Assembly: GCA_947306475.1 (NCBI GenBank) | Contig: CAMZGS010000003.1 | Coordinates: forward strand, 124,001 to 188,000 | Direction: 5' to 3' | Source of the DNA: an uncultured Comamonas sp. | GTDB taxonomy: Bacteria; Pseudomonadota; Gammaproteobacteria; Burkholderiales; Burkholderiaceae_C | DNA length: 64,000 bases | Part shown: positions 1,933-15,091 of the stretch, piece after piece | Layout: the number at the start of each line of letters is the position of its first letter | How positions within the stretch are numbered: the first letter of the stretch is position 1 | Translations under genes and position numbers: made by a program | Notes under the pieces: generated by a model | What the model saw: only the letters and a program-made list of their open reading frames with translations | Databases searched by the model: none | Told to the model about the DNA's origin: nothing

Positions 1933-2099
1933 CGTTCCATCTCCAGTTCGTCTTCAGTCACGGCCAGTGCAACATGCCCGCCCTACTCGGGATCATAAGG
2001 GCAGGGCAGCGCCGGGGTGGTTGTTGTTTTTTGACCATTTCCAGCCCCGGACTCCCGAAAGGGTTTTGTGGGTGGCGGATTTGTGCATAATTGATAAAT

Positions 2100-2118
2100 A
2101 CAAACCATTCTCATTTGC
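2100..2118 (-). promoter_or_regulatory. Fur-box-like operator before the TonB receptor operon
   Basis: Read on the minus strand the 19-mer is GCAAATGAGAATGGTTTGT, which shares the AATGAGAATG core and 13 of 19 positions with the Fur consensus GATAATGAGAATGATTATC. It sits only 6 bp before the receptor start codon, so a bound Fur would block the start of the transcript or the ribosome site. Surrounding DNA (about 2081-2120) is AT-rich, as expected for a promoter. Binding is inferred, not shown. Confidence 0.65.
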
Positions 2119-2124
2119 ATCAGC

Positions 2125-4080
2125 ATGAATTCCGACACCACCTCCACGGCATGCCGACACCATCCTGTGGCCCTGGCTTCCCTGTTGTTTCTTGGCTCGC
2201 TGCACGCCCAGGTGACCGAGGAGGGCCCGGCTGCCCCCGCCACCCTCAAGGCCGTGACCGTGACCGCCACCATGAACGAGCAGGATGCCCGCACCGCCCC
2301 GGCCAGCGTCACCGTGATCACCGAAGAAGAACTGGCCGAGCGCAACGCCGCCAATCTGCTGGACGCCGTCCGCGGCACGCCAGGGGTGAGCATGCAGGCG
2401 CGCCAGGTGGGCGGGCGCAAGACCCTGGCGCTGCGCGGCATGGAGGGCAAGCACACGCTGACCCTGATCGATGGCCGGCGCATCAGCGCCAGCGACGACG
2501 TGATCGGCCACTCCGACTACCAGTACGGCTGGCTGCCCATATCGGCGGTGGAGCGGGTGGAGATCATCCGCGGACCGCTGTCGGCGCTGTATGGCTCCGA
2601 GGCGCTGGGCGGGGTGATCAACCTGATCACAAAGAAGCCCAAGGACCGCTGGATGGCCTCCATCGGCCTGTCCGGCAGCACGGGCCTGGACTCCGACACC
2701 GCAGCCGACGCCTGGCGCAGCTCGGTCTATGCCGCCGGGCCGCTGGGGGAAAGATTCACTCTGGCGATCAACGCAGAAAAGACCCACCAGGGCAGCACCT
2801 CCTTGCCGGAAGACCGTCTTCTGTCGGAAATCGAAGGCAACCGCAACCGCAGCCTGGGGGTGACCGCCAGCTGGCAGCCGGCGCAGGGGCATGAAGTGGA
2901 ATTGGGCGTGCAGGACGGCCTGGAAAAGCGCGACTCCGACGACATCGACCGCACCCGCACGCGCTACCACAACCGCTATGAGCTGGAGCGCTCGCAGCAG
3001 CACGTGAGCTGGAACGCCGACTGGGGCGGCTGGCGCAGCCAGCTGCGCGCCTACCGCAGCGACATCCGCATCCGCAACCACCGCAATCAGGGCGTGGCGC
3101 CCACCCGCCCGCAGGACATGCGCGACAGCGTGGTCGATGGCCATGCCACCACCCGTTGGGGCCAGCACCAGATCACCGTCGGCGGCGAGTGGCGCAAGGA
3201 GGAACTGGTCAACGCCGGCCTGAAAAACGGCCGCGACGACGCCACGCACCAGGCGCTGTTCGTGCAGGATGAGTTCGCCCTGGCCCATGACCTGATGGCC
3301 ACCCTGGGCCTGCGCGCCGACCACCACGAGATTTTTGGCTCGGAGCTGAGCCCGCGCGCCTACCTGGTCTGGGAGGCGCACCCCGATCTGGTCATCAAGG
3401 GCGGCTACGGCCACGCCTTCAAGGCGCCCACGCTCAAGCAGATCTCGCCCAACTACGTCGGTGCCGAGGGGCCGCACACCTTCCTGGGCAACGGCAACAT
3501 CCAGCCGGAAACCTCCAACGCCTTTGAGCTGGGCGCCAGCTGGCAGGCCCTGCCCCAGCTGGCCCTGCGCGCCACGGCATTTCGTACCGAGGTCAAGCAG
3601 CTCATCACCTACCGCCTGCTGCAAAGAATCGGCCCGCGCAGCATCTACCAGTACGACAACGTGGATGCCGCACGCATTCAGGGGCTGGAGGCCGGCTTCA
3701 CCTGGGACATCACCCCGCGCCTGCAATGGAACAACGATGCCACCTGGCTGCACACGCGCGACAAGACCACCGGCAAGCAGCTCAACGACCGCCCGCGCGT
3801 GGCCTGGAACTCCAGCCTGGTCTGGCAGGTGCAGCAATGGCGCACCCAGCTGGGCATGGAATACACCGGCAGGCAGCAAAGCGGCAGCGGCCGCCTGCCG
3901 GCCTACACCTTGTGGAACGCCAGCGTGGGCCGGGCCTGGAAGCTGGGCGAGCAGCGCCAGCTGCACCTGAGCGCCGGCATCCACAACCTGAGCAACGTGC
4001 GCATGCAGGAGGAATCCCCCAACTTTGGCTACGCCGAGCAAGGCCGGCGCTTCTTCGTCAACGCCCGCATGGATTTTTGA
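2125..4080 (+). CDS. TonB-dependent outer-membrane receptor (haem/siderophore type)
   Basis: A 651-residue receptor. A signal peptide ends near residue 29 (SLLFLGSLHAQ). A TonB box-like segment follows at about 41-48 (LKAVTVTAT). The plug domain (about 55-165) includes TLIDGRRIS and VEIIRGPLSALYGSEALGG. The beta barrel ends in a terminal phenylalanine (FFVNARMDF). The barrel contains HAFKAPTLKQ, the 'FRAP'-type segment of receptors such as HmuR, BtuB and CirA. An in-frame stop lies just upstream and the next ATG falls after the TonB box, so ATG 2125 is the only sensible start even though no good ribosome site precedes it. It is the first gene of a four-gene operon with a CobN-like chelatase; the Fur-like box suggests an iron-linked ligand (inferred). 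Confidence 0.92.
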   Translation: MNSDTTSTACRHHPVALASLLFLGSLHAQVTEEGPAAPATLKAVTVTATMNEQDARTAPASVTVITEEELAERNAANLLDAVRGTPGVSMQARQVGGRKTLALRGMEGKHTLTLIDGRRISASDDVIGHSDYQYGWLPISAVERVEIIRGPLSALYGSEALGGVINLITKKPKDRWMASIGLSGSTGLDSDTAADAWRSSVYAAGPLGERFTLAINAEKTHQGSTSLPEDRLLSEIEGNRNRSLGVTASWQPAQGHEVELGVQDGLEKRDSDDIDRTRTRYHNRYELERSQQHVSWNADWGGWRSQLRAYRSDIRIRNHRNQGVAPTRPQDMRDSVVDGHATTRWGQHQITVGGEWRKEELVNAGLKNGRDDATHQALFVQDEFALAHDLMATLGLRADHHEIFGSELSPRAYLVWEAHPDLVIKGGYGHAFKAPTLKQISPNYVGAEGPHTFLGNGNIQPETSNAFELGASWQALPQLALRATAFRTEVKQLITYRLLQRIGPRSIYQYDNVDAARIQGLEAGFTWDITPRLQWNNDATWLHTRDKTTGKQLNDRPRVAWNSSLVWQVQQWRTQLGMEYTGRQQSGSGRLPAYTLWNASVGRAWKLGEQRQLHLSAGIHNLSNVRMQEESPNFGYAEQGRRFFVNARMDF

Positions 4081-4088
4081 CGAGTCCT

Positions 4089-4175
4089 AAAACCATAGCT
4101 GCTTGCGCTGGATAGACAAGGATTTCAGTTGAAAAACCATCTGAAATCCTTTTCCTACAAGCGCCTGCAGCTCAT
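4089..4175. repeat. Dispersed ~90-bp nested inverted repeat, copy 1
   Basis: Outer arms TAGCTGCTTGCGCTGG and CAAGCGCCTGCAGCT enclose inner arms GATTTCAG and CTGAAATC. It lies between the TonB receptor and the cobN-like gene and would be transcribed as a long hairpin between them. Its presence argues against starting the chelatase at the upstream ATG 4129, which would place repeat DNA in the coding region. Confidence 0.85.
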
Positions 4176-4236
4176 CTTACTGATGTTGGCCGACCATGCT
4201 TCACGGTGTGGCAGGTCGGCACCGACGTTTGTGTTC

Positions 4237-7200
4237 ATGAAAAAACTTTTGCATCTCTGGCTGCTGGCACTGTGCTGTTGCACCACCTGGGCACAGGCGC
4301 CTGCCAGCAACAGCGCCGCCCCGGCTGGCGCGCCGCCGCTGTCCGTGCTGTTCATTGCCACCAGCAACGTGCCCGCCGGCAAATTCCGCCAGCTGGCCGA
4401 CATTGCCCGGCCCCACGGCATCCAGGTGCAGGTGCGCTACCTGCACCAGCTCCCCAAGAGCAGCGACGGTGGCCTGTGGCGGGGCCACGCGGCCGTGTTC
4501 TTCGACAGCTATCTGGTCAACGAGGTGCAGGAGCATCTGAGCAGCGCGCTGCCCGATCTGCGCCAGCCCTGCCTGTGGCTGTACGGTCAGCAGATCCAGG
4601 CCCAGGGCCTGCCGCAGCCTGTGGCGCAGCGCCTGCATCAGTACTACGTCAACGGCGGTCGGCAAAACTTCGAGGGTTTTTTTGCCACCCTGGCCGCCCA
4701 CCTGCGCGGCCTGCCGCCGCCGCAGACGGCGCCGCCCGTGCTCTACCCCAAGGCTGCCATCTACCACCCGCAGGCGCCCCAGCAGGTGTTTGCCAGCGCG
4801 CAGGAGTATTTCGCCTGGAAAGGCGTGACCGCCAGCGCCCCCCGCCGCCAGCGCCCGCCCATCATTGCCCTGGCGCTGCACCAGCAGTACCTGGCCGCCA
4901 TGCAGACCGCCTTTGTGGACGACCTGATCGCCCGCATCGAAGCCAGCGGCGCCACCGCCCTGGCGTTCTACACCCCGATGATGGAGCCACGCGGCTTTAC
5001 CCGGCTGCTGCAGGATGAGCACGGCAAGCCCCTGGCCGATGTGCTCATCACCACGCAGATCATGCTCAGCGCCGAACACCGGCGCAGCGAGTTTGCCGAG
5101 CTGGGCATCCCCGTGCTGCAGGCCATGCCCTACCGCCGTGGCGCAGAAGAAGACTGGGCCCAGGACCCGCAGGGCGTGCGCCTGATGGATGTGCCCTTCT
5201 ACCTGGCCCAGCCCGAATACGCCGGCGTGACCGACATTCAGGTGGCCGCCGCCACGCGCAAGAGCGACGAGCAGATCGTCGCCATCGCCGCGCAGGCGCA
5301 GGCCGTGGTGAACAAGGCCGTGCGACTGGCCAAACTGCAGGCCACGGCCAATGCCGACAAGCGGGTGGCACTGATGTTCTGGAACTACCCCCCGGGCGAG
5401 AAGAACCTGAGCGCCTCCTTCCTGAACGTGCCGCGCAGCCTGCGCCGCGTGCTCGACGGCCTGCAGGAGGCTGGCTACGACACCTCCACCCCCGGGGAAG
5501 AAGCGCTGGTGGCCCAACTGCAGCAGCTGCTGGCCCCGGCCTACCGCAACGACCGCCTGCAACCGCTGCTGAAGGCCAACCTGGCCGCGCTGTTGCCACT
5601 CAAGGACTACCGCGCCTGGCTGCAACAGCTGCCCAGCGCCACCCGGCAGGCCCTGGCTGCGGCCTGGGGCGATCCCGCGCAATCGCGCATGGTGCTGCGC
5701 CGCGCCGGGCAGGAGTTCTTCGTCATTCCGCGCCTGCAGCTGGGCCGTGTGCTCATCCTGCCGCAGCCGCCGCGCGCCGAGGGACAGGAGAACAAGGAAA
5801 AAGCCCTCTACCACTCCACCACCGCCCTGCCCTCGCACCACTACCTGGCCACCTACCTGTGGATGCGCCAGCACGCCGATGCGCTGATCCACTTCGGCAC
5901 CCACGGCACGCAGGAGTGGCTGCCCGGCAAGGAACGCGGCCTGTCCGTGTACGACCCGCCGCTGCTGGCGCTGGGCGACATCCCCGTGGCCTACCCCTAC
6001 ATTGCCGACAACATCGGCGAAGCCACGCAGGCCAAGCGCCGGGGCCGTGCCACCATCGTCAGCCACCAGACCCCGCCTTTTGCTCCCGGCGGCCTGCACG
6101 CCGCGCTCACGCACATGCACGACCTGCTGCACCAGTGGCTGGCGCAGGACGAAGGCGCCGTCAAGGATCGCCTGGCCGCCGATCTGCTGACCGCCACCCG
6201 CCAGGAGCGCGTGCTGGCCGACCTGGGCCTGACCGAAGCCCAGGCACAGGCCGACTTCGGTGCTTTCGTCCACCTGCTGCACGAGCACCTGCACGAGCTG
6301 GCGCAGACCGCCCAACCCCAGGGCCTGCACACCTTCGGCAAGGCGCCCGAAGAGCTGCACCGCCTGGGTACCGTGCTGCTCATGCTGGGGCAGCCCTTCT
6401 GGGAAGCGGCTGCCGCGCACGCCGGCGTCCCGACCGAGGACGTGGACGAAGCCCTCATCGGCCCCTGGGAGATCCTGCCCCAGACCACGCCCTACCAGCT
6501 GCTGCAGCGTCACGTGGTACAGGGCGAAAGCCTGGATGCACTGCCCGAAGCGCTACAGAAGTCCTTGCAGCAGGCGCGCACCGCCTACGACCACCTGGGC
6601 GCCCGAAACGAGATGGCCGGCCTGCTGGCCGTGCTGGACGGCAGGTACCTGCCCACCTCCTACGGCGGCGATCCGATCAAAAACCCGGACGCCTACCCCA
6701 CAGGGCGCAACCTCTATGGCTTCGACCCCTCGCGCGTGCCCACCCGGCAGGCCTGGGAGGCCGGCAGGCAGGCCGCTGAAAACCTGCTGAACGAACACCG
6801 CCGGCTGCACGGCCAGTTGCCTGAAAAACTCACCTTCAGCCTGTGGTCGGTGGAAACCATGCGTCACCAGGGGCTGCTGGAAGCGCAGGCGCTGTGGCTG
6901 CTGGGCGTGGAACCCGTCTGGGATGAAGGCGGGCGCGTCACCGGCGTGCATCTGGTGCCGCGCGCGCAATTGGGCCGCCCACGGGTGGACGTGGTGCTCT
7001 CGGCCACCGGCCTGTACCGCGACCACTTTCCCAACGTGATGAAGCAGCTGGCCCAGGCCGTGCTGCTGGCCAGCCAGGCCCGGGACGAGGCCGACAACCC
7101 CGTGGCACGCAACGCACAGCGCATTGCCCAAAAGCTCATCGCCCAGGGGGCCGACGCCCAGACTGCCGAGCGCGCCGGCGCCACGCGCATCTTCTCCTCG

Positions 7201-8355
7201 GCCAGCGGCAACTACGGCACCGGGCTGGACGATGCCACCCTGGCCACCGACACCTGGAGCGGCAAGGAAGAGGGCGACCGCAAGCTCGCCCAGCTGTACC
7301 TGTCCAGAATGCAGTACGCCTACGGCCCGGATGAACGGCACTGGGGTGCCGCCGGCGTGGATGGGCTGGACGACAAGGACATCAACCTGTACGCCGAACA
7401 CCTGCGGGGCACGCAGGGCGCCGTGCTGTCGCGCACCTCCAACCTGTACGGCATGCTCACCACCGACGACCCCTTCCAGTACCTGGGGGGCATTGCCCTG
7501 GCGGTGCACCACCTGGATGGCAAGGCGCCCGAGCTGTACATCAGCAACCTGCGCGGCGCAGGCAGCGGCCGGGTGGAGGGTGCCGCACAGTTCCTGGCCA
7601 AGGAGCTGGCCACGCGCCAGTTCCACCCCGGCTACATCCAGGGGCTGATGCAGGAAGGCTATGCCGGCACGTTGCAGGTGCTGGATGCCACCAACAATTT
7701 CTGGGGCTGGACAGCGGTGGCGCGCGAAATCGTGCGCGACGACCAGTGGCAGGAAATGGTGGACGTGTACGTGCGCGACAAGCACCAGCTGGGCCTGAAG
7801 CAATGGTTCGAGCAGCACAACCCCCACGCCCTGGCGCAGACCATGGAGCGCATGCTGGAAGCGGCCCGACAGGGTTACTGGCAGGCCGACGACGCCACCG
7901 TGCAGGAGCTGAAGACCCGCTGGCGCGAGCTGGCCCGCCGCTACGACGTGCGCACCGACAACGCCGCCTTTGCCGCCTCGGTCGGCGCCCGCGCTCTGCC
8001 CGGGGCCGGCTTTGGCATCGCCCCACCCAGCGCCACGGCCTCTGCCTCCCAGGGCGCCTCCAGCGCCACGCGCCCACTGCCCAAGCTGCCAGCAGCGCCT
8101 CCGCCCCCCGCCGAGGCACCCCCCGCGCCCGAGCACAGCCCGAAGCCGGAAGCAAAACCGCAGGCCGAGCCGGAGCCACCTCCCGTCACCGGGGTGGTGC
8201 TGCGTCCCGTCACCCCCCCCGAAGCACCGCCCCCCTCCTGGCCCTGGCGCAGCCTGGGGCTGGGGGTCGGGCTGGCCGCCATTGCCGCCAGCGGTGCCTG
8301 GCACCAGCGCCACCAGGCACGCCGGGGCAATCGACGCAAAAAACATAGCTCTTAG
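4237..8355 (+). CDS. Exported, membrane-anchored CobN-like chelatase (HmuS-like)
   Basis: A 1372-residue protein of the CobN/BchH family. The hallmark motif HFGTHGTQEWLPGK is at about residues 551-564 and the C-terminal half keeps CobN blocks such as NFWGWTAVAREIV. Unlike cytoplasmic CobN it begins with a Sec signal peptide (MKKLLHLWLLALCCCTTWAQA). It ends with a Pro-rich linker (about 1255-1330), one membrane helix (about 1338-1355) and a basic tail, so the catalytic body should lie in the periplasm. I start at ATG 4237 because the signal peptide follows directly; ATG 4129 lies inside a repeat. No CobS/CobT or ChlI/ChlD partners are nearby. The last residues (KKHSS) and the stop are encoded by the edge of another repeat. 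The context of TonB receptor, ExbB-like channel and DUF2149 resembles Bacteroidetes hmu loci, where HmuS removes iron from haem. Cobalt or another tetrapyrrole remains possible. Confidence 0.85.
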   Translation: MKKLLHLWLLALCCCTTWAQAPASNSAAPAGAPPLSVLFIATSNVPAGKFRQLADIARPHGIQVQVRYLHQLPKSSDGGLWRGHAAVFFDSYLVNEVQEHLSSALPDLRQPCLWLYGQQIQAQGLPQPVAQRLHQYYVNGGRQNFEGFFATLAAHLRGLPPPQTAPPVLYPKAAIYHPQAPQQVFASAQEYFAWKGVTASAPRRQRPPIIALALHQQYLAAMQTAFVDDLIARIEASGATALAFYTPMMEPRGFTRLLQDEHGKPLADVLITTQIMLSAEHRRSEFAELGIPVLQAMPYRRGAEEDWAQDPQGVRLMDVPFYLAQPEYAGVTDIQVAAATRKSDEQIVAIAAQAQAVVNKAVRLAKLQATANADKRVALMFWNYPPGEKNLSASFLNVPRSLRRVLDGLQEAGYDTSTPGEEALVAQLQQLLAPAYRNDRLQPLLKANLAALLPLKDYRAWLQQLPSATRQALAAAWGDPAQSRMVLRRAGQEFFVIPRLQLGRVLILPQPPRAEGQENKEKALYHSTTALPSHHYLATYLWMRQHADALIHFGTHGTQEWLPGKERGLSVYDPPLLALGDIPVAYPYIADNIGEATQAKRRGRATIVSHQTPPFAPGGLHAALTHMHDLLHQWLAQDEGAVKDRLAADLLTATRQERVLADLGLTEAQAQADFGAFVHLLHEHLHELAQTAQPQGLHTFGKAPEELHRLGTVLLMLGQPFWEAAAAHAGVPTEDVDEALIGPWEILPQTTPYQLLQRHVVQGESLDALPEALQKSLQQARTAYDHLGARNEMAGLLAVLDGRYLPTSYGGDPIKNPDAYPTGRNLYGFDPSRVPTRQAWEAGRQAAENLLNEHRRLHGQLPEKLTFSLWSVETMRHQGLLEAQALWLLGVEPVWDEGGRVTGVHLVPRAQLGRPRVDVVLSATGLYRDHFPNVMKQLAQAVLLASQARDEADNPVARNAQRIAQKLIAQGADAQTAERAGATRIFSSASGNYGTGLDDATLATDTWSGKEEGDRKLAQLYLSRMQYAYGPDERHWGAAGVDGLDDKDINLYAEHLRGTQGAVLSRTSNLYGMLTTDDPFQYLGGIALAVHHLDGKAPELYISNLRGAGSGRVEGAAQFLAKELATRQFHPGYIQGLMQEGYAGTLQVLDATNNFWGWTAVAREIVRDDQWQEMVDVYVRDKHQLGLKQWFEQHNPHALAQTMERMLEAARQGYWQADDATVQELKTRWRELARRYDVRTDNAAFAASVGARALPGAGFGIAPPSATASASQGASSATRPLPKLPAAPPPPAEAPPAPEHSPKPEAKPQAEPEPPPVTGVVLRPVTPPEAPPPSWPWRSLGLGVGLAAIAASGAWHQRHQARRGNRRKKHSS

Positions 8356-8400
8356 CGCTTGCCCAGAAAGCGCAAAAGGCAGATTTCATTCAGATTTTTC
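8338..8400. repeat. Variant repeat at the end of the cobN-like gene, copy 2
   Basis: The sequence begins AAAACATAGCTCTTAGCGC, as in the other copies, but then shows a short hairpin GCGCTTgcccagAAAGCGC instead of the long nested form. It is a shorter subclass or a half element. It supplies the stop codon of the chelatase gene. Confidence 0.6.
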
Positions 8401-8412
8401 AGGAGTCCATCA

Positions 8413-8970
8413 ATGACCAATCCCATCGAAGTGGCGATGTACGACATCAGCCAGTTCTTCCTCTACCCCGTGCTCATCGCCATTGCGGTGCTGTTCGTGC
8501 ACGCCTTCTTCGCCCTGGGCGCCTTTGTCTGGCAGGCCTGGCAGCGTGCCCGAGGCCACATCGCCGGGTTTGAGCTGCACGCCGTTCGGCAGGCCGATCC
8601 CGACATCGACCTGGTGGCGCTGGAGACACTGGCCGTCAAACGCCTGGAATTTGCCCGCATCGCCACCCGCGTAGCCCCCATGCTGGGTCTGGTGGCCACC
8701 ATGATCCCCATGGGCCCGGCCCTGAAGGCCCTGGCCGACGGGGCGCTGCAGGACGTCTCACGCAGCCTGATGATTGCGTTTTCCGCCGTCATCCTGGCGC
8801 TGCTGTCGGCGGCCATCAGCTTCACCGTGGTGAATGTGCGCAAGCGCTGGTACAGCGCCGATCTGGCCACCATCGAAGCCCGACTGGCCCACGCCACCCC
8901 ACAGGCCACAGCTCCAGTGCAGCCGCCTGCTGCCGCGCACGCTGCAGCGCTCCACGGAGCGCACGCATGA
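8413..8970 (+). CDS. MotA/TolQ/ExbB-type proton channel protein
   Basis: A 185-residue inner-membrane protein with three predicted helices: about residues 12-34 (FFLYPVLIAIAVLFVHAFF), 88-110 (APMLGLVATMIPMGPAL) and 120-145 (SLMIAFSAVILALLSAAI). The second helix region has the ExbB/TolQ core pattern. The start at 8413 is preceded by AGGAG with 7-nt spacing; the open frame begins earlier but inside repeat DNA. It overlaps the next gene by the ATGA arrangement, implying coupled translation. It probably couples proton motive force to the neighbouring chelatase or receptor, together with the DUF2149 protein in the ExbD-like role (inferred). Confidence 0.85.
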   Translation: MTNPIEVAMYDISQFFLYPVLIAIAVLFVHAFFALGAFVWQAWQRARGHIAGFELHAVRQADPDIDLVALETLAVKRLEFARIATRVAPMLGLVATMIPMGPALKALADGALQDVSRSLMIAFSAVILALLSAAISFTVVNVRKRWYSADLATIEARLAHATPQATAPVQPPAAAHAAALHGAHA

Positions 8971-9392
8971 GCACCGTCAACCCTCCCCAGCCACAGGGCA
9001 CAGCCCCCCTGCCCCACGCCAACCGCCGCCGCTTGCTCGAAGACAGCGATGAGGACGACCCCATCCTCTCCGTGGTGAACCTGATCGACGTGTTCCTGGT
9101 CATCATCGCGGCCCTGCTGCTGGCCGTGGCCCAAAGCCCGGTCAACCCCTTCACGGCCGCCCAGGTCACGGTCATCAGGAACCCCGGCCAGGAGAACATG
9201 GAAGTCATCGTCAAGGACGGCACCAGAATCGAGCATTACAAGGCCAGCGGCGAAATCGGCGCCGGCCAGGGAGCCAAGGCGGGGGTGGCCTACAAGATGA
9301 AGGACGGCTCCATGGTGTACGTGCCCGAAACCACGCCGCCGCCCACCGCCGCGCAGCAAGACCCAGCCCCCAGCCCGCCCGAGCGCCCCTGA
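8967..9392 (+). CDS. DUF2149 domain membrane protein (ExbD-like partner)
   Basis: A 141-residue protein with one membrane helix at about residues 36-54, in the DUF2149 signature DPILSVVNLIDVFLVIIAA. A small periplasmic domain follows (TVIRNPGQENMEVIVKDG) and the tail is Pro-rich. The topology (short cytoplasmic N-terminus, single helix with an Asp, periplasmic domain) matches ExbD/TolR, and DUF2149 genes are habitually found next to ExbB-like and CobN-like genes. The start overlaps the previous stop by 4 nt. It is the last gene of the operon and is followed by a strong hairpin. The molecular function is not experimentally known to me. Confidence 0.82.
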   Translation: MSTVNPPQPQGTAPLPHANRRRLLEDSDEDDPILSVVNLIDVFLVIIAALLLAVAQSPVNPFTAAQVTVIRNPGQENMEVIVKDGTRIEHYKASGEIGAGQGAKAGVAYKMKDGSMVYVPETTPPPTAAQQDPAPSPPERP

Positions 9393-9421
9393 CCCCTCTG
9401 GCCTTCGGGCTGGCCCCAAAC

Positions 9422-9450
9422 GACCACCCCCGCAAAACGCGGGGGTGGTC
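9422..9450. terminator. Strong 12-bp hairpin between convergent genes
   Basis: Perfect arms GACCACCCCCGC / GCGGGGGTGGTC with a 5-nt loop, lying between the DUF2149 gene and gldA, which converge here. There is no T-run, so termination may rely on Rho or the hairpin may mainly protect 3' ends. Confidence 0.6.
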
Positions 9451-10574: not shown

Positions 10575-10600
10575 ATCCATCCTCCTTGTAAAACCCTGAC

Positions 10601-10618
10601 AGGCTCAGCATTGAGCCT
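10601..10618. promoter_or_regulatory. Inverted repeat between gldA and metH
   Basis: AGGCTCA-GCAT-TGAGCCT, a perfect 7-bp palindrome, 27 bp upstream of gldA and within the divergent promoter region. It could be an operator or a leader hairpin; I do not recognise the binding protein. Confidence 0.3.
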
Positions 10619-10784
10619 TACGACATTCTGACCTGTCCGGGCGGTGCTGGCAGCCCATTTTCCGAGGACGCAAAGCGCACCCGGCATGCGACGGCAACCA
10701 GCAACGGGCCGGACCCCACGGCCAATTGAGCGCACATCCCATTGCGCCAACAGAGACCCAGGCAACTTCCTACAATCTGCGCCC

Positions 10785-11819
10785 ATGACTTTGCCCACCT
10801 ACACCCGCGCCCAGCAGCTGCCTGCCATCCTGCAACAACGTATTGCCATCCTGGATGGGGCCATGGGCACCATGATTCAGCGCTTCAAACTCACCGAAGC
10901 CCAGTACCGGGGTGAACGCTTTGCCGACTTTGCCCACGATGTGAAGGGCAACAACGAGCTGCTCTCGCTCACGCGCCCGGATGTGATCCGCGACATCCAC
11001 GAACGCTATCTGGCCGCTGGCGCCGACCTGATCGAAACCAACACCTTTGGCGCCACCAGCATCGCCCAGGACGACTACCACATGGGCCATCTGGCCTATG
11101 AGATGAACCTGGAAAGCGCCAGGCTGGCACGCGCTGCCTGCGACAAGTTTTCCACGCCCGACCATCCGCGCTTTGTCGCCGGCGCCCTGGGCCCGACGCC
11201 CAAGACCGCCAGCATCAGCCCCGATGTGAACGACCCCGGCGCGCGCAACATCAACTTCGAGCAACTGCGCGCCGCGTATCTGGAACAGGCCCTGGGCCTG
11301 ATTGCCGGCGGCGCCGACGTGCTGCTGGTGGAGACCATCTTCGACACCCTCAACGCCAAGGCCGCGCTGTTTGCCATCGATGAAGCGTTTGAGCAGAGCG
11401 GCGAGTGCCTGCCCATCATGATCAGCGGCACGGTGACCGATGCCTCGGGCCGCATCCTCTCGGGCCAGACCGTGACCGCCTTCTGGCACAGCGTGCGCCA
11501 CGCCAATCCGCTGTCGGTGGGCCTGAACTGCGCACTGGGCGCCGCGCTGATGCGCCCCTACATCCAGGAGCTGGCCAAGGCCGCGCCGGACACCTTCATC
11601 AGCTGCTACCCCAACGCCGGTCTGCCCAACCCGATGAGCGACACCGGCTTTGACGAAACGCCCGACGTCACCAGCCGCCTGGTGCACGAGTTCGCCGCCG
11701 AAGGTCTGGTGAACATTGTCGGCGGCTGCTGCGGCACCACGCCCGACCACATTGGCGCCATTGCCCAGGCCGTGGCCCCGGTGCCTGCGCGCAAGCTGTT
11801 CTATCCCGAGAACGCCTGA
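10785..11819 (+). CDS. metH: MetH N-terminal module: homocysteine S-methyltransferase (split methionine synthase)
   Basis: A 344-residue protein equal to the homocysteine-binding domain of cobalamin-dependent methionine synthase ([11 protein letters not shown] at residues 20-30, then [10 protein letters not shown]). The zinc ligands Cys249 (GLNCALG), Cys315 and Cys316 ([10 protein letters not shown]) are intact. It stops at a natural C-terminus. The folate, cobalamin and reactivation domains of MetH are not encoded downstream or elsewhere in the window. Split metH is known in Comamonadaceae, usually with the second half adjacent. The start at 10785 gives the family's N-terminus; upstream codons of the open frame are not conserved. 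It is followed by a terminator-like structure, so it is transcribed alone. Confidence 0.88.
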
Positions 11820-11839
11820 CCCCCTCCCGACGGCCCCGC

Positions 11840-11900
11840 CACCCCTGAGCTCAGCCTGAGCCGCGCACCCGCGCGCGGGCAAGACGCCAGGGGTGTTTTT
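11840..11900 (+). terminator. Probable terminator after metH module
   Basis: Arms CACCCCTG (11840-11847) and CAGGGGTG (11888-11895) enclose a GC-rich region that itself can fold, and are followed by TTTTT. Confidence 0.5.
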
Positions 11901-11914
11901 GCGGGTCGCACCAC

Positions 11915-12003
11915 TAAAAACATAGCTGCTGCCGCTTGATTGGTATGGATTTCATGTAAAAAAGTACCTGAAATTCAATACTGACAAGCGGCAGTAGCTA
12001 TTA
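11915..12003. repeat. Dispersed nested inverted repeat, copy 3
   Basis: Outer arms TAGCTGCTGCCGCTTG and CAAGCGGCAGTAGCTA agree at 15 of 16 paired positions; inner arms are ATTTCATG and CTGAAATT. It lies immediately before the AlbA_2-like gene remnant. Confidence 0.9.
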
Positions 12004-12033
12004 CAAATCGCCAAAACAACGGTTTAAGCACAT

Positions 12034-12255
12034 ATGAACCCTCATCCCCTCTCCACAGCACAACTGCTGGAGCACATAGCGCTGGGCGAAGACAGCACGC
12101 GCCAGTTTCGGCGTACCGTCCAGCAGGCCGACACGCTGGCGGCCGGGCTGGTCACACGCACCATTCCCGACAAGCCCAACAGCCGCCTGCAAAAGTACCG
12201 CTGCACCGAAGCCGGACGGCAACAACTGGCGCGCATGGGCAAAGAGGGTTCATGA
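12034..12255 (+). pseudogene. Internally deleted remnant of an AlbA_2/RecG-like ATP-binding regulator gene
   Basis: The 73 codons join two recognisable ends of one family. Residues 8-40 (LLEHIALGEDSTRQF, then ADTLAAGL) look like the start of AlbA_2 (Schlafen-type) ATP-binding regulators. Residues 44-66 (IPDKPNSRLQKYR, TEAGRQQL) look like the extreme C-terminus of the same proteins. The intervening few hundred residues are missing but the frame is kept, so a small peptide may still be made. It sits between two copies of the dispersed repeat, in DNA that otherwise has no genes. The assignment rests on motif memory; a short genuine gene is the alternative. Confidence 0.5.
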
Positions 12256-12286
12256 TGTGGCCTGCTGCCTGCACCATGCTTGCAAA

Positions 12287-12374
12287 TACGTAGCTTTATG
12301 CGCTGAAAGAAAAATATTTTTTAGTTGAAATAAGCCTGAAATCTTTTACCAGTCAGCGCAAACAGCTATAAAAA
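12287..12374. repeat. Dispersed nested inverted repeat, copy 4
   Basis: Outer arms TAGCTTTATGCGCTGA and TCAGCGCAAACAGCTA pair at 14 of 16 positions and enclose an AT-rich centre with CTGAAATC. It lies just upstream of the CaiB/BaiF-family gene and may reach its promoter. Confidence 0.85.
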
Positions 12375-12416
12375 CCATTGCGGCAGGCACCACACACACC
12401 ACCACGAGGAGACAAC

Positions 12417-13529
12417 ATGCAAAAAGTTTTACAAGGACTGCGCGTACTGGAAATTGGCGGCCTGGGTCCCGGCCCCTTCTGCGCCATGCATCTGGCCGAC
12501 CTGGGCGCCGACGTCATCAGCCTGGTGCGGCCCGGCGGCAGTGGCGGCCCGGCCATCACCGGCGATCTGCTCAACCGGGGCAAGCGCTCGGTGTTCGCCA
12601 ACCTCAAATCGCCCGAAGGGCGCGACCTGGCACTGCAACTGGTGCGCAATGCCGATGTGCTGATCGAAGGCATGCGCCCCGGCGGCATGGAGCGCCTGGG
12701 CCTGGGCCCGGCGGAATGCCATGCCGTCAACCCCGCCCTGGTCTATGGCCGCATGACCGGCTGGGGCCAGCACGGCCCGCTGGCGCACACCGCCGGGCAC
12801 GATGCCAACTACGCCGCGCTGTCTGGTGCCATGTGGGGTTGCAGCCCGGCCGATGCGCGCCCGGTGCCGCCCTTTGGCGTGCTGGGCGATATCGGCGGCG
12901 GAGCGCTCTATCTGATGACCGGCCTGCTGTGCGGCGTGCTGCAGGCCCGCGCCACCGGTCAGGGCACGGTGGTGGATGCGGCCATCGTCGATGGCGCGGC
13001 GCACATGCTCAACCTGATGCTGAGCATGCGCGCCACCGGCCTGGTGGGCGATACGCGCGACACCAGCCTGCACACCACCGCACCGTTTTACGACACCTAC
13101 GTCTGTGCCGATGGCGAGCACATCGCCATCGGGCCGATCGAGCCGCAGTTCTACCAACTGCTGTTGCAGCGCCTGGGCCTGGAGCAGGATCCGGACTTCA
13201 CCGGCGATCAGTGGGACCGCAGCGCCTGGCCACGCCGCCGCGCACGCCTGGCCACCCTCTTCCTGCAGCATCCACAGGCGCACTGGCAGCGGCTGCTGGA
13301 AGGCAGCGATGCCTGCTTTGCCCCGGTGCTCAGCCCCCAGGCAGCAGCTCAACACCCACACCTGCAGGCGCGCGGCGTGTACGCCAGCCCCGATGGCACC
13401 TTGCAGGCCAGCCCGGCCCCGCGCTTTGGCACGACGCCCTACCCCATCAACCCCTGCAGCCCCGCCGGCGCGCACACCGAGGCCGTACTCCAGGACCTGG
13501 CCCGTGGAGGCCATGGCTGGAAGGGGTAA
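12417..13529 (+). CDS. CaiB/BaiF-family protein, probable alpha-methylacyl-CoA racemase
   Basis: A 370-residue class III CoA-transferase fold protein. The N-terminal Rossmann-like part shows LGPGPFCAMHLADLGADV. The region RMTGWGQHGPLAHTAGHDANYAALSG matches the racemase branch, where the His and Asp equivalents of the catalytic pair occur (GHDANY). It would interconvert the (R)- and (S)-forms of 2-methylacyl-CoAs in branched-chain or sterol side-chain degradation. The start at 12417 has GAGGAGA 5-6 nt upstream. Other CaiB/BaiF activities cannot be excluded. The gene stands alone and the next gene on the strand is unrelated. Confidence 0.82.
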   Translation: MQKVLQGLRVLEIGGLGPGPFCAMHLADLGADVISLVRPGGSGGPAITGDLLNRGKRSVFANLKSPEGRDLALQLVRNADVLIEGMRPGGMERLGLGPAECHAVNPALVYGRMTGWGQHGPLAHTAGHDANYAALSGAMWGCSPADARPVPPFGVLGDIGGGALYLMTGLLCGVLQARATGQGTVVDAAIVDGAAHMLNLMLSMRATGLVGDTRDTSLHTTAPFYDTYVCADGEHIAIGPIEPQFYQLLLQRLGLEQDPDFTGDQWDRSAWPRRRARLATLFLQHPQAHWQRLLEGSDACFAPVLSPQAAAQHPHLQARGVYASPDGTLQASPAPRFGTTPYPINPCSPAGAHTEAVLQDLARGGHGWKG

Positions 13530-13558
13530 CAATGCAGCCACCCCACGAAAGGACATCC

Positions 13559-13870
13559 ATGAAAAAAACCTGCCTCGCCCTGCTTGCCCTGACCGCACTG
13601 GCCGCCTGCAGCAGCCCCCCGCCCGCTGCCACGCCCTCAGCTGAACACCATGTGCGCTTTCTGTGCGACAACGGACAGACCCTGTCGGTGCGCTTTTCCG
13701 ACGCCACGGCGGTACTCACGCGCAATGGCAGCGACATCACCCTGCAGCAACAGCCCAGCGGCTCGGGCTTCATCTACAGCAACGGGCCCAACACCATCCG
13801 TGGCAAGGGCGACGACCTGACGGTGGAGATTGGCCGCATGGTGCCGCTGCAATGCCGGGTTCAGTACTAG
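13559..13870 (+). CDS. MliC/PliC-type C-type lysozyme inhibitor lipoprotein
   Basis: A 103-residue lipoprotein. The signal peptide ends in the lipobox LAAC with the acylated Cys at residue 17. The mature part has the MliC pattern: FLCDNGQTLSVRF, then SGSGFIYSNG and the paired cysteine near the C-terminus (PLQCRVQY). These proteins inhibit host or environmental C-type lysozyme at the cell envelope. It starts 29 bp after the racemase-like gene, preceded by AAAGGA, and is followed by an efflux operon 39 bp on. Confidence 0.8.
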   Translation: MKKTCLALLALTALAACSSPPPAATPSAEHHVRFLCDNGQTLSVRFSDATAVLTRNGSDITLQQQPSGSGFIYSNGPNTIRGKGDDLTVEIGRMVPLQCRVQY

Positions 13871-13909
13871 GCGCCATCCCCCACCCTGCCTTGCTGCGGT
13901 AACGTCCTC

Positions 13910-15091
13910 ATGCAACGTCGCGCCATGTGGATTCTGGGCAGCGCCACCCTGGTGGCTGCTGCCGGGTGGCTGGCCTTCCAGACGATGAGCGCTCCGGTGC
14001 TGGACGCCTACCAGGTAGTGGCCCAGCCGCTGGTGCAGACCGTGGTGGCCACGGGCCGGATCACGGCGCCCTCGCGCGCGCAGGTGGGCAGCCCCATCAC
14101 CGGCGTGGTGCTGGAGCGGCGCGTGCGCGAAGGCGACCAGGTGCGCGCCGGCGATGTGCTGGCGCTGCTGCGCGCCGACGATCTGCAGGCCGAGCTGCGC
14201 CAGGCACGCGCGGCCCTGGCCGAGCTGCAGGAATCGACACGTCCACAAGCCCAACTGGCCGTGCAGCAGACCCAGCGCCAGTGGCAGCAGGCCCTGCGCG
14301 AGCTGGAGCGCCGCCGCGTGCTGGCAGCGCAGCAGGCCATCACCCACGAAGAGCTGGAACAGGCCGAGCAGGCCGAAATCCTGGCGCGCACCGCCGCCGA
14401 GCAGGCGCAACTGCAGGCGCGCGCCCTGCAACCGGGCAAGGGCCAGGAGGCCGTCGCCCAGGCGCGTGTGGCCAGTGCCCAGGCCCTGCTGGACAAGGCC
14501 ACCATCCGCGCCGAATTTGCCGGCACGGTGCTCACGCGCAATGCCGAGCCGGGCGACCTGGTGCAGCCCGGCCAGACCCTGTTCGAGATTGCCCGCGACA
14601 CCGACACCGAGGTGCTGGTGGCGCTGGATGAAAAAAATCTGGAAGTGCTGGCCCTGGGGCAGACCGCGCAGTGCGTGGCCGATGCCTACCCACGCCAGCC
14701 CTTTGCCGCGCGGGTGAGCCAGATTGCACCCAGCATCGATCCACAGCGCGGCACGGTGGATGTGCGCCTGAGGGTGGCCGAGCCGCCCGCCTTCCTGCGC
14801 CAGGACATGACGGTTTCCGTGAACATCCAGACCGGCCAGCAGGAGCAGGCCGTGGTGGTGCCCAACGACGCCCTGACCAGCCCCGACAGCCTGCACCCCA
14901 GCGTGTGGGTGGTGGAGCAGGACCGCGCTGTGCGCCGCCAGCTGCAACTGGGCCTGCGCGGCATGGCGCAAACGCAGGTGACGGCCGGCCTGCAGGCCGG
15001 CGACTGGGTGCTGGCCAATGCCCAGGCCGCGCTGGAGCCAGGCCAGCGCGTGCGTGTGCGCAAGCGCCCGCTGCCGTGGCAACAGCCATGA
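13910..15091 (+). CDS. Periplasmic adaptor (HlyD/MacA family) of an ABC exporter
   Basis: A 393-residue membrane-fusion protein. One N-terminal membrane helix (about 6-24) is followed by a barrel-sandwich half motif (VGSPITGVVLERRVREGDQVRAGDVL), a coiled-coil hairpin of about 85-170 rich in Ala/Gln/Glu, the second half of the lipoyl domain (KATIRAEFAGTVL), and a beta-barrel with DMTVSVNI. It bridges the inner-membrane ABC permease to an outer-membrane channel. It precedes the permease gene (54 bp gap) and the ATPase gene, forming a MacA-MacB-like three-gene operon. No outer-membrane channel gene is present. The exported substrate is unknown. Confidence 0.9.
   Translation: MQRRAMWILGSATLVAAAGWLAFQTMSAPVLDAYQVVAQPLVQTVVATGRITAPSRAQVGSPITGVVLERRVREGDQVRAGDVLALLRADDLQAELRQARAALAELQESTRPQAQLAVQQTQRQWQQALRELERRRVLAAQQAITHEELEQAEQAEILARTAAEQAQLQARALQPGKGQEAVAQARVASAQALLDKATIRAEFAGTVLTRNAEPGDLVQPGQTLFEIARDTDTEVLVALDEKNLEVLALGQTAQCVADAYPRQPFAARVSQIAPSIDPQRGTVDVRLRVAEPPAFLRQDMTVSVNIQTGQQEQAVVVPNDALTSPDSLHPSVWVVEQDRAVRRQLQLGLRGMAQTQVTAGLQAGDWVLANAQAALEPGQRVRVRKRPLPWQQP

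Follow-up and report, generated by a model that had tools for sequence, protein, structure and literature searches.

What would a CobN-type chelatase do when it is apparently exported from the cytoplasm and encoded beside a TonB-dependent receptor, and how could it be energised there? The class-I chelatases characterised so far act on tetrapyrroles. The question is raised by a four-gene operon in a 64-kb stretch of DNA (G000:C3:124001-188000; this whole stretch is hereafter called the window) from the 2.92-Mb genome of an uncultured Comamonas sp. The operon (2125-9392, + strand) encodes, in this order, a TonB-dependent receptor, a CobN-family protein, an ExbB-like protein and a DUF2149 protein (Table 1). 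The best explanation, which we hold with about even confidence, is that of a Fur-controlled iron-acquisition operon combining an exported chelatase with a proton-motive motor.

Gene content and predicted export of the chelatase

The arrangement of these genes as a single operon, put forward in an original prediction made from the DNA letters, is recovered by reading frames and by Pfam profile matches, all on the same strand. The chelatase was taken there to be exported and membrane-anchored, not of the cytoplasmic type, which agrees with the hydrophobic segments predicted at both ends of the protein: a signal-type segment at the N-terminus and a Pro-rich tail that ends hydrophobic (Kyte-Doolittle hydropathy only, no signal-peptide program). 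All 57 exported-type CobNs compared (the window protein, those of 45 of 47 related loci with the second copy in L022, and those of ten named plasmid loci; L044, with its CobN in two pieces, and the partial L012 are omitted) have, beyond the conserved body, a tail that contains a hydrophobic stretch (17-residue hydropathy 1.16-3.36). In contrast, seven canonical CobNs and one BchH stop 0-13 residues past the body and have no hydrophobic C-terminal tail, and no ExbB or DUF2149 gene was found near them; an export signal is not expected of a canonical CobN either. Furthermore, a motif [VI]xGxx[LM] lies between the body and the helix, 6-24 residues before the latter, in 53 of the 57 proteins (0.4 expected from shuffled stretches). 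It is common to the Runella and Trichlorobacter proteins, the bodies of which are only 32% and 31% identical to that of the window, and its strict form is missing in four proteins, namely that of L019 and three of the HmuS type.

The best NCBI model for the window chelatase is NF004644 (cobaltochelatase; 1410 bits over 1248) and, as anticipated, cobaltochelatase is the label used by those sources that name the protein. It shares the fold family PF02514 with CobN of aerobic cobalamin synthesis (PDB 7c6o) and with ChlH/BchH (4zhj). The genome has a single PF02514 match and a single DUF2149 match, and, of the loci listed, two Comamonas records have the CobNs closest to that of the window (best segment 83%). 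The operon lies outside any cobalamin operon, as had been said; of the claimed absence of CobS and CobT, the part on CobT stands (PF06213, no match in the whole genome), CobS not having been searched for. The hairpin thought to close the operon has its stem but no T run, and is not among the terminator-scan results.

Table 1. Features of the operon and of its products, with positions in the window
Feature	Position	Strand	Basis or remark
Fur-type operator (predicted)	2097..2115	.	AATACAAACCATTCTCATT; 15/18 relaxed consensus; first-ranked by matrix trained on other loci
TonB-dependent receptor, CirA-like class T1	2125..4080	+	651 aa; Pfam plug and barrel; best PDB match CirA 2hdf, E 2.4e-88
Receptor His451, FKAP...N loop	3475..3477	+	His in aligned T1 relatives; Phe in two Zur-box relatives
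Exported, membrane-anchored CobN-family chelatase (predicted)	4237..8355	+	1372 aa; PF02514, 1023.6 bits; tail comparison; trees
Signal segment (predicted), about residues 1-21	4237..4299	+	Hydropathy; cleavage site placed by eye
His556 of HFGTHG, equivalent to HmuS His538	5902..5904	+	Alignment
Asp1078 at HmuS His1209 position (Gln1081 at Glu1212)	7468..7470	+	Alignment
Juxtamembrane motif VTGVVL ([VI]xGxx[LM])	8185..8202	+	53/57 exported CobNs, 0.4 expected
C-terminal transmembrane segment (predicted)	8251..8301	+	Hydropathy 1.47 over 17 residues
ExbB-like proton-channel subunit	8413..8970	+	185 aa; MotA_ExbB, 27.7 bits (cut-off 22.9); TxIPMGPAL signature
DUF2149 protein, ExbD-like subunit	8967..9392	+	141 aa; PF09919, 99.8 bits (cut-off 27.1)
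DUF2149 membrane Asp41	9087-9089	+	Asp in 53/54 sequences, Glu in one
Hairpin closing the operon, without T run	9422..9450	+	12-bp stem, z -2.8

Regulation of the operon

A Fur-like box had been placed before the operon at 2100-2118. Such a site is indeed predicted, at 2097-2115, and stops 9 bases 5' of the receptor start. It scores 15/18 with a relaxed Fur consensus (p 0.01, 100 promoter shuffles) and is the sole site of at least 14/18 across the 64 kb; none of 500 permutations of the consensus reaches 15/18. The strict E. coli-type consensus fails to single out the site (the best score in the window, 11/19, lies elsewhere and the box itself reaches 11 at most), and in that first scan the best Zur-type match of the window was 14/23. 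The relaxed consensus was written after the strict-scan output and 16 promoters of loci with a CirA-like receptor (class T1, that of the window) had been viewed, so that p values for class T1 are favourable. The 24 promoters of loci with the second receptor class (T2) had not been viewed beforehand, and a matrix derived from their 15 sites alone is, together with the permuted consensus, the fair control. This matrix, built without the window or its receptor class, ranks position 2097 first of 63,982, with 27.3 bits against 11.3 for the runner-up. On 47.5 kb of other sequence from this genome, with iron genes among the stretches fetched and hence informative on the finding of iron promoters, not on the rarity of such matches, its two top matches (24.7 and 22.2 bits) lie just 5' of a bacterioferritin-associated-ferredoxin-like (Bfd-like) gene and 53 bases before feoA-feoB. 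The Bfd-like gene is followed by a tonB-like frame, upstream of tonB/exbBD-type genes (names read by eye; FeoB by Pfam). The only Fur-family protein found in the genome is Fur (177.2 bits, cut-off 146). With a box before its first gene and Fur encoded in the genome, the operon is a predicted member of the Fur regulon, and the iron-type control proposed earlier is supported by the consensus, by the matrix rank and by the identity of this sole regulator.

Two other types of control were rejected. For Zur, no significant site precedes the operon (best 13/22, p 0.07), there is no second Fur-family protein, and ZnuA has no match in the genome. For cobalamin, an Rfam scan of the window gives no riboswitch of any kind. 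Among 40 promoters (the window and 39 of the 47 loci, eight being without a promoter test; the loci are related and the counts not independent), a Fur-type site with p at or below 0.05 was found in 24 and a Zur-type site in one, that is, in 9/16 and 0/16 of the T1 promoters and in 15/24 and 1/24 of the T2 promoters.

Receptor and probable ligand

The two receptor classes near CobN are unequally distributed: class T1 occurs in 16 of the 47 loci and class T2 in 26 (L011 weakly), and neither is upstream in the other five. Tested with the two curated haem-receptor models, 22 of 23 T2 receptors exceed both cut-offs and L035 does not (L011, L023 and L029 are outside the 23); the one searched against PDB matches PhuR at 1.6e-82. 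A gene for the haem-binding protein ChaN (PF04187) is present in 11 of the 26 T2 loci, with Pfam confirmation in 11/11; BLAST with a single ChaN query detected no ChaN in the CirA-like loci. The haem context of these sister loci is therefore strong. The window receptor itself stays below the cut-offs of the haem-receptor models TIGR01785 (231.6 vs 316.85) and TIGR01786 (210.7 vs 323.75), and also below that of the CirA model NF007478 (318.5 vs 745). Seven His are each conserved in at least 16 of 17 T1 members (L007, with a receptor in two frames, was left out of receptor alignments), and CirA has no His in the FKAP...N loop where the window receptor has His451, a place where a loop His is a haem ligand in known haem receptors. 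From these comparisons we infer haem as the substrate of the window operon. Thus the haem demetallation first proposed for this locus keeps the haem-type receptors and ChaN of its sister loci on its side, and has the sub-threshold window receptor against it.

The likeness to CirA, a catecholate receptor, would also suit a different cargo, with the receptor importing a ferric siderophore and the CobN-like protein stripping iron from a non-tetrapyrrole chelate. This is quite unlikely, given that the characterised class-I chelatases act on tetrapyrroles (PMC12583661) and that the window protein retains part of the cavity positions to which propionate binding has been ascribed in HmuS.

As regards the fate of the metal, FeoB is present in the genome (Pfam), and the heme oxygenase family PF01126 has no match there, other haem-degrading families not having been searched. 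The genome encodes one FecCD permease, for which no curated NCBIfam model reaches its cut-off. Beside it are genes for a substrate-binding protein recognised by a general model only and for a CobU-like protein that falls slightly short of its cut-off (156.2 of 161), neighbours that hint at B12 as the permease ligand.

Chelatase cavity and comparison with HmuS

Several traits link the window operon to the hmuYRSTUV operon of Bacteroidota and its HmuS protein (PMC12583661, PMC13227078): a CobN-family protein that is exported and doubly anchored (predicted so in the window), partners of the TonB receptor, ExbB-like (hmuU) and DUF2149 (hmuV) types, and an iron response (predicted from the Fur site in the window). 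Their relationship, claimed earlier, is supported by gene content. The chelatase also has the HFG(T/A)HG motif with the equivalent of His538 (HFGTHG, residues 552-557), as well as Ser1014 and Ser1199 (HmuS numbering), which have been proposed to hold the propionates. Both serines are kept in all 47 relatives compared (L071 and 46 of the 47 loci), whereas canonical CobNs have Gly at the Ser1014 position (7/7) and rarely Ser at the Ser1199 position (1/7). The HmuS segment LSLDHxxEFMGG, containing His1209 and Glu1212, is replaced by LTTDDPFQYLGG in the window, with Asp and Gln at these two positions as in the 47 relatives and in 6/7 canonical CobNs. As aligned, the window cavity is mixed, with the metal pair of CobN and two serines of HmuS.

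The further idea that the protein is a version of HmuS itself had to be abandoned. Indeed, (i) the Met-rich insertion (domain IV) is lacking, with 0 Met in the 70-residue region of the window protein against 6-30 Met within 127-316 residues in three HmuS rows, (ii) His254 of the head/neck haem site is replaced by Ile, and Gln1198 and Trp1202 are replaced along with His1209 and Glu1212, (iii) the operon has four genes, none HmuY- or HmuT-like (the rest of the genome was not searched), in place of six, and (iv) HmuS forms a separate branch in the trees. The Met79 column shows a gap in the window protein, in a head domain that aligns poorly (1/3 HmuS rows has Arg there). In two quick trees (59 and 57 rows, near copies or fragments of seven and thirteen loci, respectively, being left out; long branches meet and deep placement is unsure), the window protein groups with Comamonas (support 100) and canonical CobN and BchH lie on one side (support 91 and 93). 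The chelatase is therefore not placed with canonical CobN, in agreement with the phylogenetic expectation attached to the original prediction.

The Asp/Gln pair bears on a corrinoid alternative, in which the chelatase would remove or insert cobalt during B12 salvage. It is consistent with this that a cobalamin riboswitch precedes the receptor of one relative (L017), that a Trichlorobacter module sits in a cobalamin cluster (PMC3403914) and, as a weak B12 clue, that a gene for the N-terminal part of MetH lies 1.25 kb downstream of the window operon. We regard it as unlikely in view of the Fur site and the lack of an Rfam riboswitch in the window, of a window receptor far from the BtuB cut-offs, and of the haem receptors and ChaN in relatives.

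The ExbB-like/DUF2149 pair

Genes for both proteins are near CobN in 43 of the 47 loci (in L028 the DUF2149 gene is cut by the contig end), a count that excludes L050-L058, which were picked by their DUF2149 matches. Three of the other four loci stop at contig ends (L003, L012 and L020; in the L003 genome the pair is found on a different small contig). In the fourth, L017, both genes are missing near CobN, and the L017 genome holds another CobN-ExbB-DUF2149 set (L079); L017 and the first copy in L064 are the two exported-type CobNs near which no motor genes were found despite available sequence. For the DUF2149 protein, a low-confidence structure model predicts a single membrane helix. An acidic residue lies in this helix in 54/54 sequences, placed as in ExbD, and a weak local match to an ExbD profile covers the helix (E 2.7e-5). 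The model (pLDDT 64) is too low in confidence for a fold search. The pair thus resembles ExbB-ExbD of the Ton system in belonging to a proton-channel family and in bearing a membrane Asp on the small subunit. It differs in the signature TxIPMGPAL, distinct to the ExbB-like protein (Thr in 54/54), and in the periplasmic part of DUF2149, which the ExbD model misses in this genome.

This resemblance, and the fact that a locus holding the pair also has a receptor in nearly every case, would also fit a pair that powers the TonB receptor, the role published for HmuU/HmuV, and a chelatase that works without a motor. We regard this as a doubtful, if serious, alternative. The window genome has three separate ExbD genes, the Trichlorobacter locus has the pair plus its own exbB-exbD-tonB, and one locus has ExbB-DUF2149-CobN with no annotated receptor within the 18 kb shown. 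Moreover, Methanosarcina acetivorans, which is not known to have an outer membrane, has DUF2149 and CobN matches and no ExbD match, and the conserved motif and helix belong to the chelatase. The evidence leans towards a pair that serves the chelatase rather than the receptor. The coupling of the pair to the chelatase is inferred from such indirect arguments.

Related units in other metal contexts

In the genus of Pseudomonas schmalbachii, four of 25 genomes searched have DUF2149. Two of the operons carry a Fur site (p 0.0066) without a significant Zur site, and in two others the reverse holds, with a Zur site (p 0.0033) but no significant Fur site. In the Zur-box forms the cavity reads DHPFE and residue 451 of the receptor is Phe; in the Fur-box forms these are DDPFQ and His. 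The two kinds are separate tree branches. Resting on two operons against two, this pairing of residues with regulators is a lead, not a law. A His/Glu pair is also carried by an Azospirillum unit near nikR. In Runella (L052:2671-16929), genes for a receptor, a membrane protein, ExbB, DUF2149 and CobN stand among the nickel-hydrogenase maturation genes hypABF and hypCDE, a setting that suggests nickel; the membrane protein, annotated 'urease accessory', has sub-cut-off matches to DsbD_2 and NicO. The Trichlorobacter unit sits in a cobalamin cluster.

These contexts include a published one, the operon PA1922-PA1925 of Pseudomonas aeruginosa, which likewise combines a TonB receptor, a CobN-like protein and a motor-type gene; Zur binding and a 147-fold induction of PA1922 are reported, and the role is stated to be undetermined (PMC4542158, PMC8531726). 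By analogy in gene content, and with Zur sites before two Pseudomonas-genus relatives, the window operon could serve zinc acquisition. This is very improbable: to the regulatory findings given above is added that its cavity and receptor residues are unlike those of the two Zur-box forms.

A CobN without CobST beside TonB genes was described in 2012 (PMC3403914). What is new is the pattern, with the CobN-ExbB-DUF2149 unit under Zur boxes in Pseudomonas, among nickel-hydrogenase genes in Runella and in a cobalamin cluster in Trichlorobacter. In PMC10100974, hmuV-type (DUF2149) genes are regarded as diagnostic of haem transport; this value is questioned here because DUF2149 occurs in zinc-, nickel- and cobalt-type contexts.

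Proposed mechanism

Under the iron-acquisition reading, Fur would leave the box at 2097-2115 when iron is scarce, and the receptor would carry an iron complex, most likely haem or another iron tetrapyrrole, into the periplasm. The CobN-family protein, held by its C-terminal helix, would take up the macrocycle in its class-I chelatase cleft, where His556 and Asp1078 lie, and extract the metal. The ExbB-like/DUF2149 pair would act on it as a proton-motive motor, via the C-terminal helix and the VTGVVL motif, standing in for the AAA+ ATPases (CobST, ChlID), which are unable to work outside the cytoplasm. FeoB could then take up the freed Fe2+.

Several observations weigh against this reading. The window receptor is CirA-like and under the haem-receptor cut-offs, and no His reaches 90% conservation among the T2 haem-class receptors. 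Haem may enter the cytoplasm via the FecCD permease, of unsettled ligand. The chelatase passes the curated cobaltochelatase model, and has Asp/Gln for His1209/Glu1212 of HmuS, as in most canonical CobNs. In L017, a member of the window's clade, a cobalamin riboswitch (L017:5215-5414) precedes the haem-type receptor; no other riboswitch exceeded the gathering score when Rfam was applied to the window and to 26 of the 47 loci. At p 0.05, no Fur site was found in 7/16 T1 and 9/24 T2 promoters. As for the motor, the likeness of DUF2149 to ExbD is weak (hhalign probability 75% local, 25% global; four ExbD sequences), the three HmuS proteins lack the strict motif, and in Bacteroides proteins of this pair's type have been assigned to the receptor (PMC12583661, PMC10100974).

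More broadly, and with rather less than even confidence, we propose a family of extracytoplasmic class-I chelatases run by proton motive force, in which the motor would pull the C-terminal helix via [VI]xGxx[LM] and in which changes of the operator, of the receptor loop (Phe for His451) and of the two cavity residues (His/Glu for Asp/Gln) would retune the unit between iron, zinc, nickel and cobalt. In the literature searched, of which few subscription papers and only parts of texts were covered, neither a proton-motive motor for a chelatase nor a Fur-controlled exported CobN in Proteobacteria was found. Periplasmic metal removal would thereby be extended from Bacteroidota to Beta- and Gammaproteobacteria, where the genes are filed as vitamin B12 enzymes, and a testable answer would be offered both for the role of PA1922-PA1925 and for how a chelatase is energised without ATP.

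Distribution and additional observations

DUF2149 is present in 24 of 150 genomes sampled from the same family (own genome included) and absent from the one same-genus genome listed among them, and is therefore a patchy trait. Acidovorax-type loci (L071:1170-18889, also L007, L009, L033 and L047) have an extra receptor between CobN and ExbB, the L071 set being flanked by a Crp/Fnr regulator, a cupin, ABC genes and NnrS. In Azonexus (L022:7545-19269), two CobN-ExbB-DUF2149 sets adjoin in opposite orientation, the second CobN being 39.6% identical to that of the window. A Cupriavidus plasmid encodes an exported, motif-bearing CobN and then a canonical CobN (L064:5395-9537 and 10584-14483), in a stretch that yielded neither ExbB nor DUF2149. 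Ten of the compared loci, L025:4213-5520 among them, share a DUF2325-type gene (Pfam checked in one). Finally, the frame at 10644-11819 of the window matches only the first quarter of methionine synthase (profile positions 7-337 of 1234), and MetH thus appears to be split.

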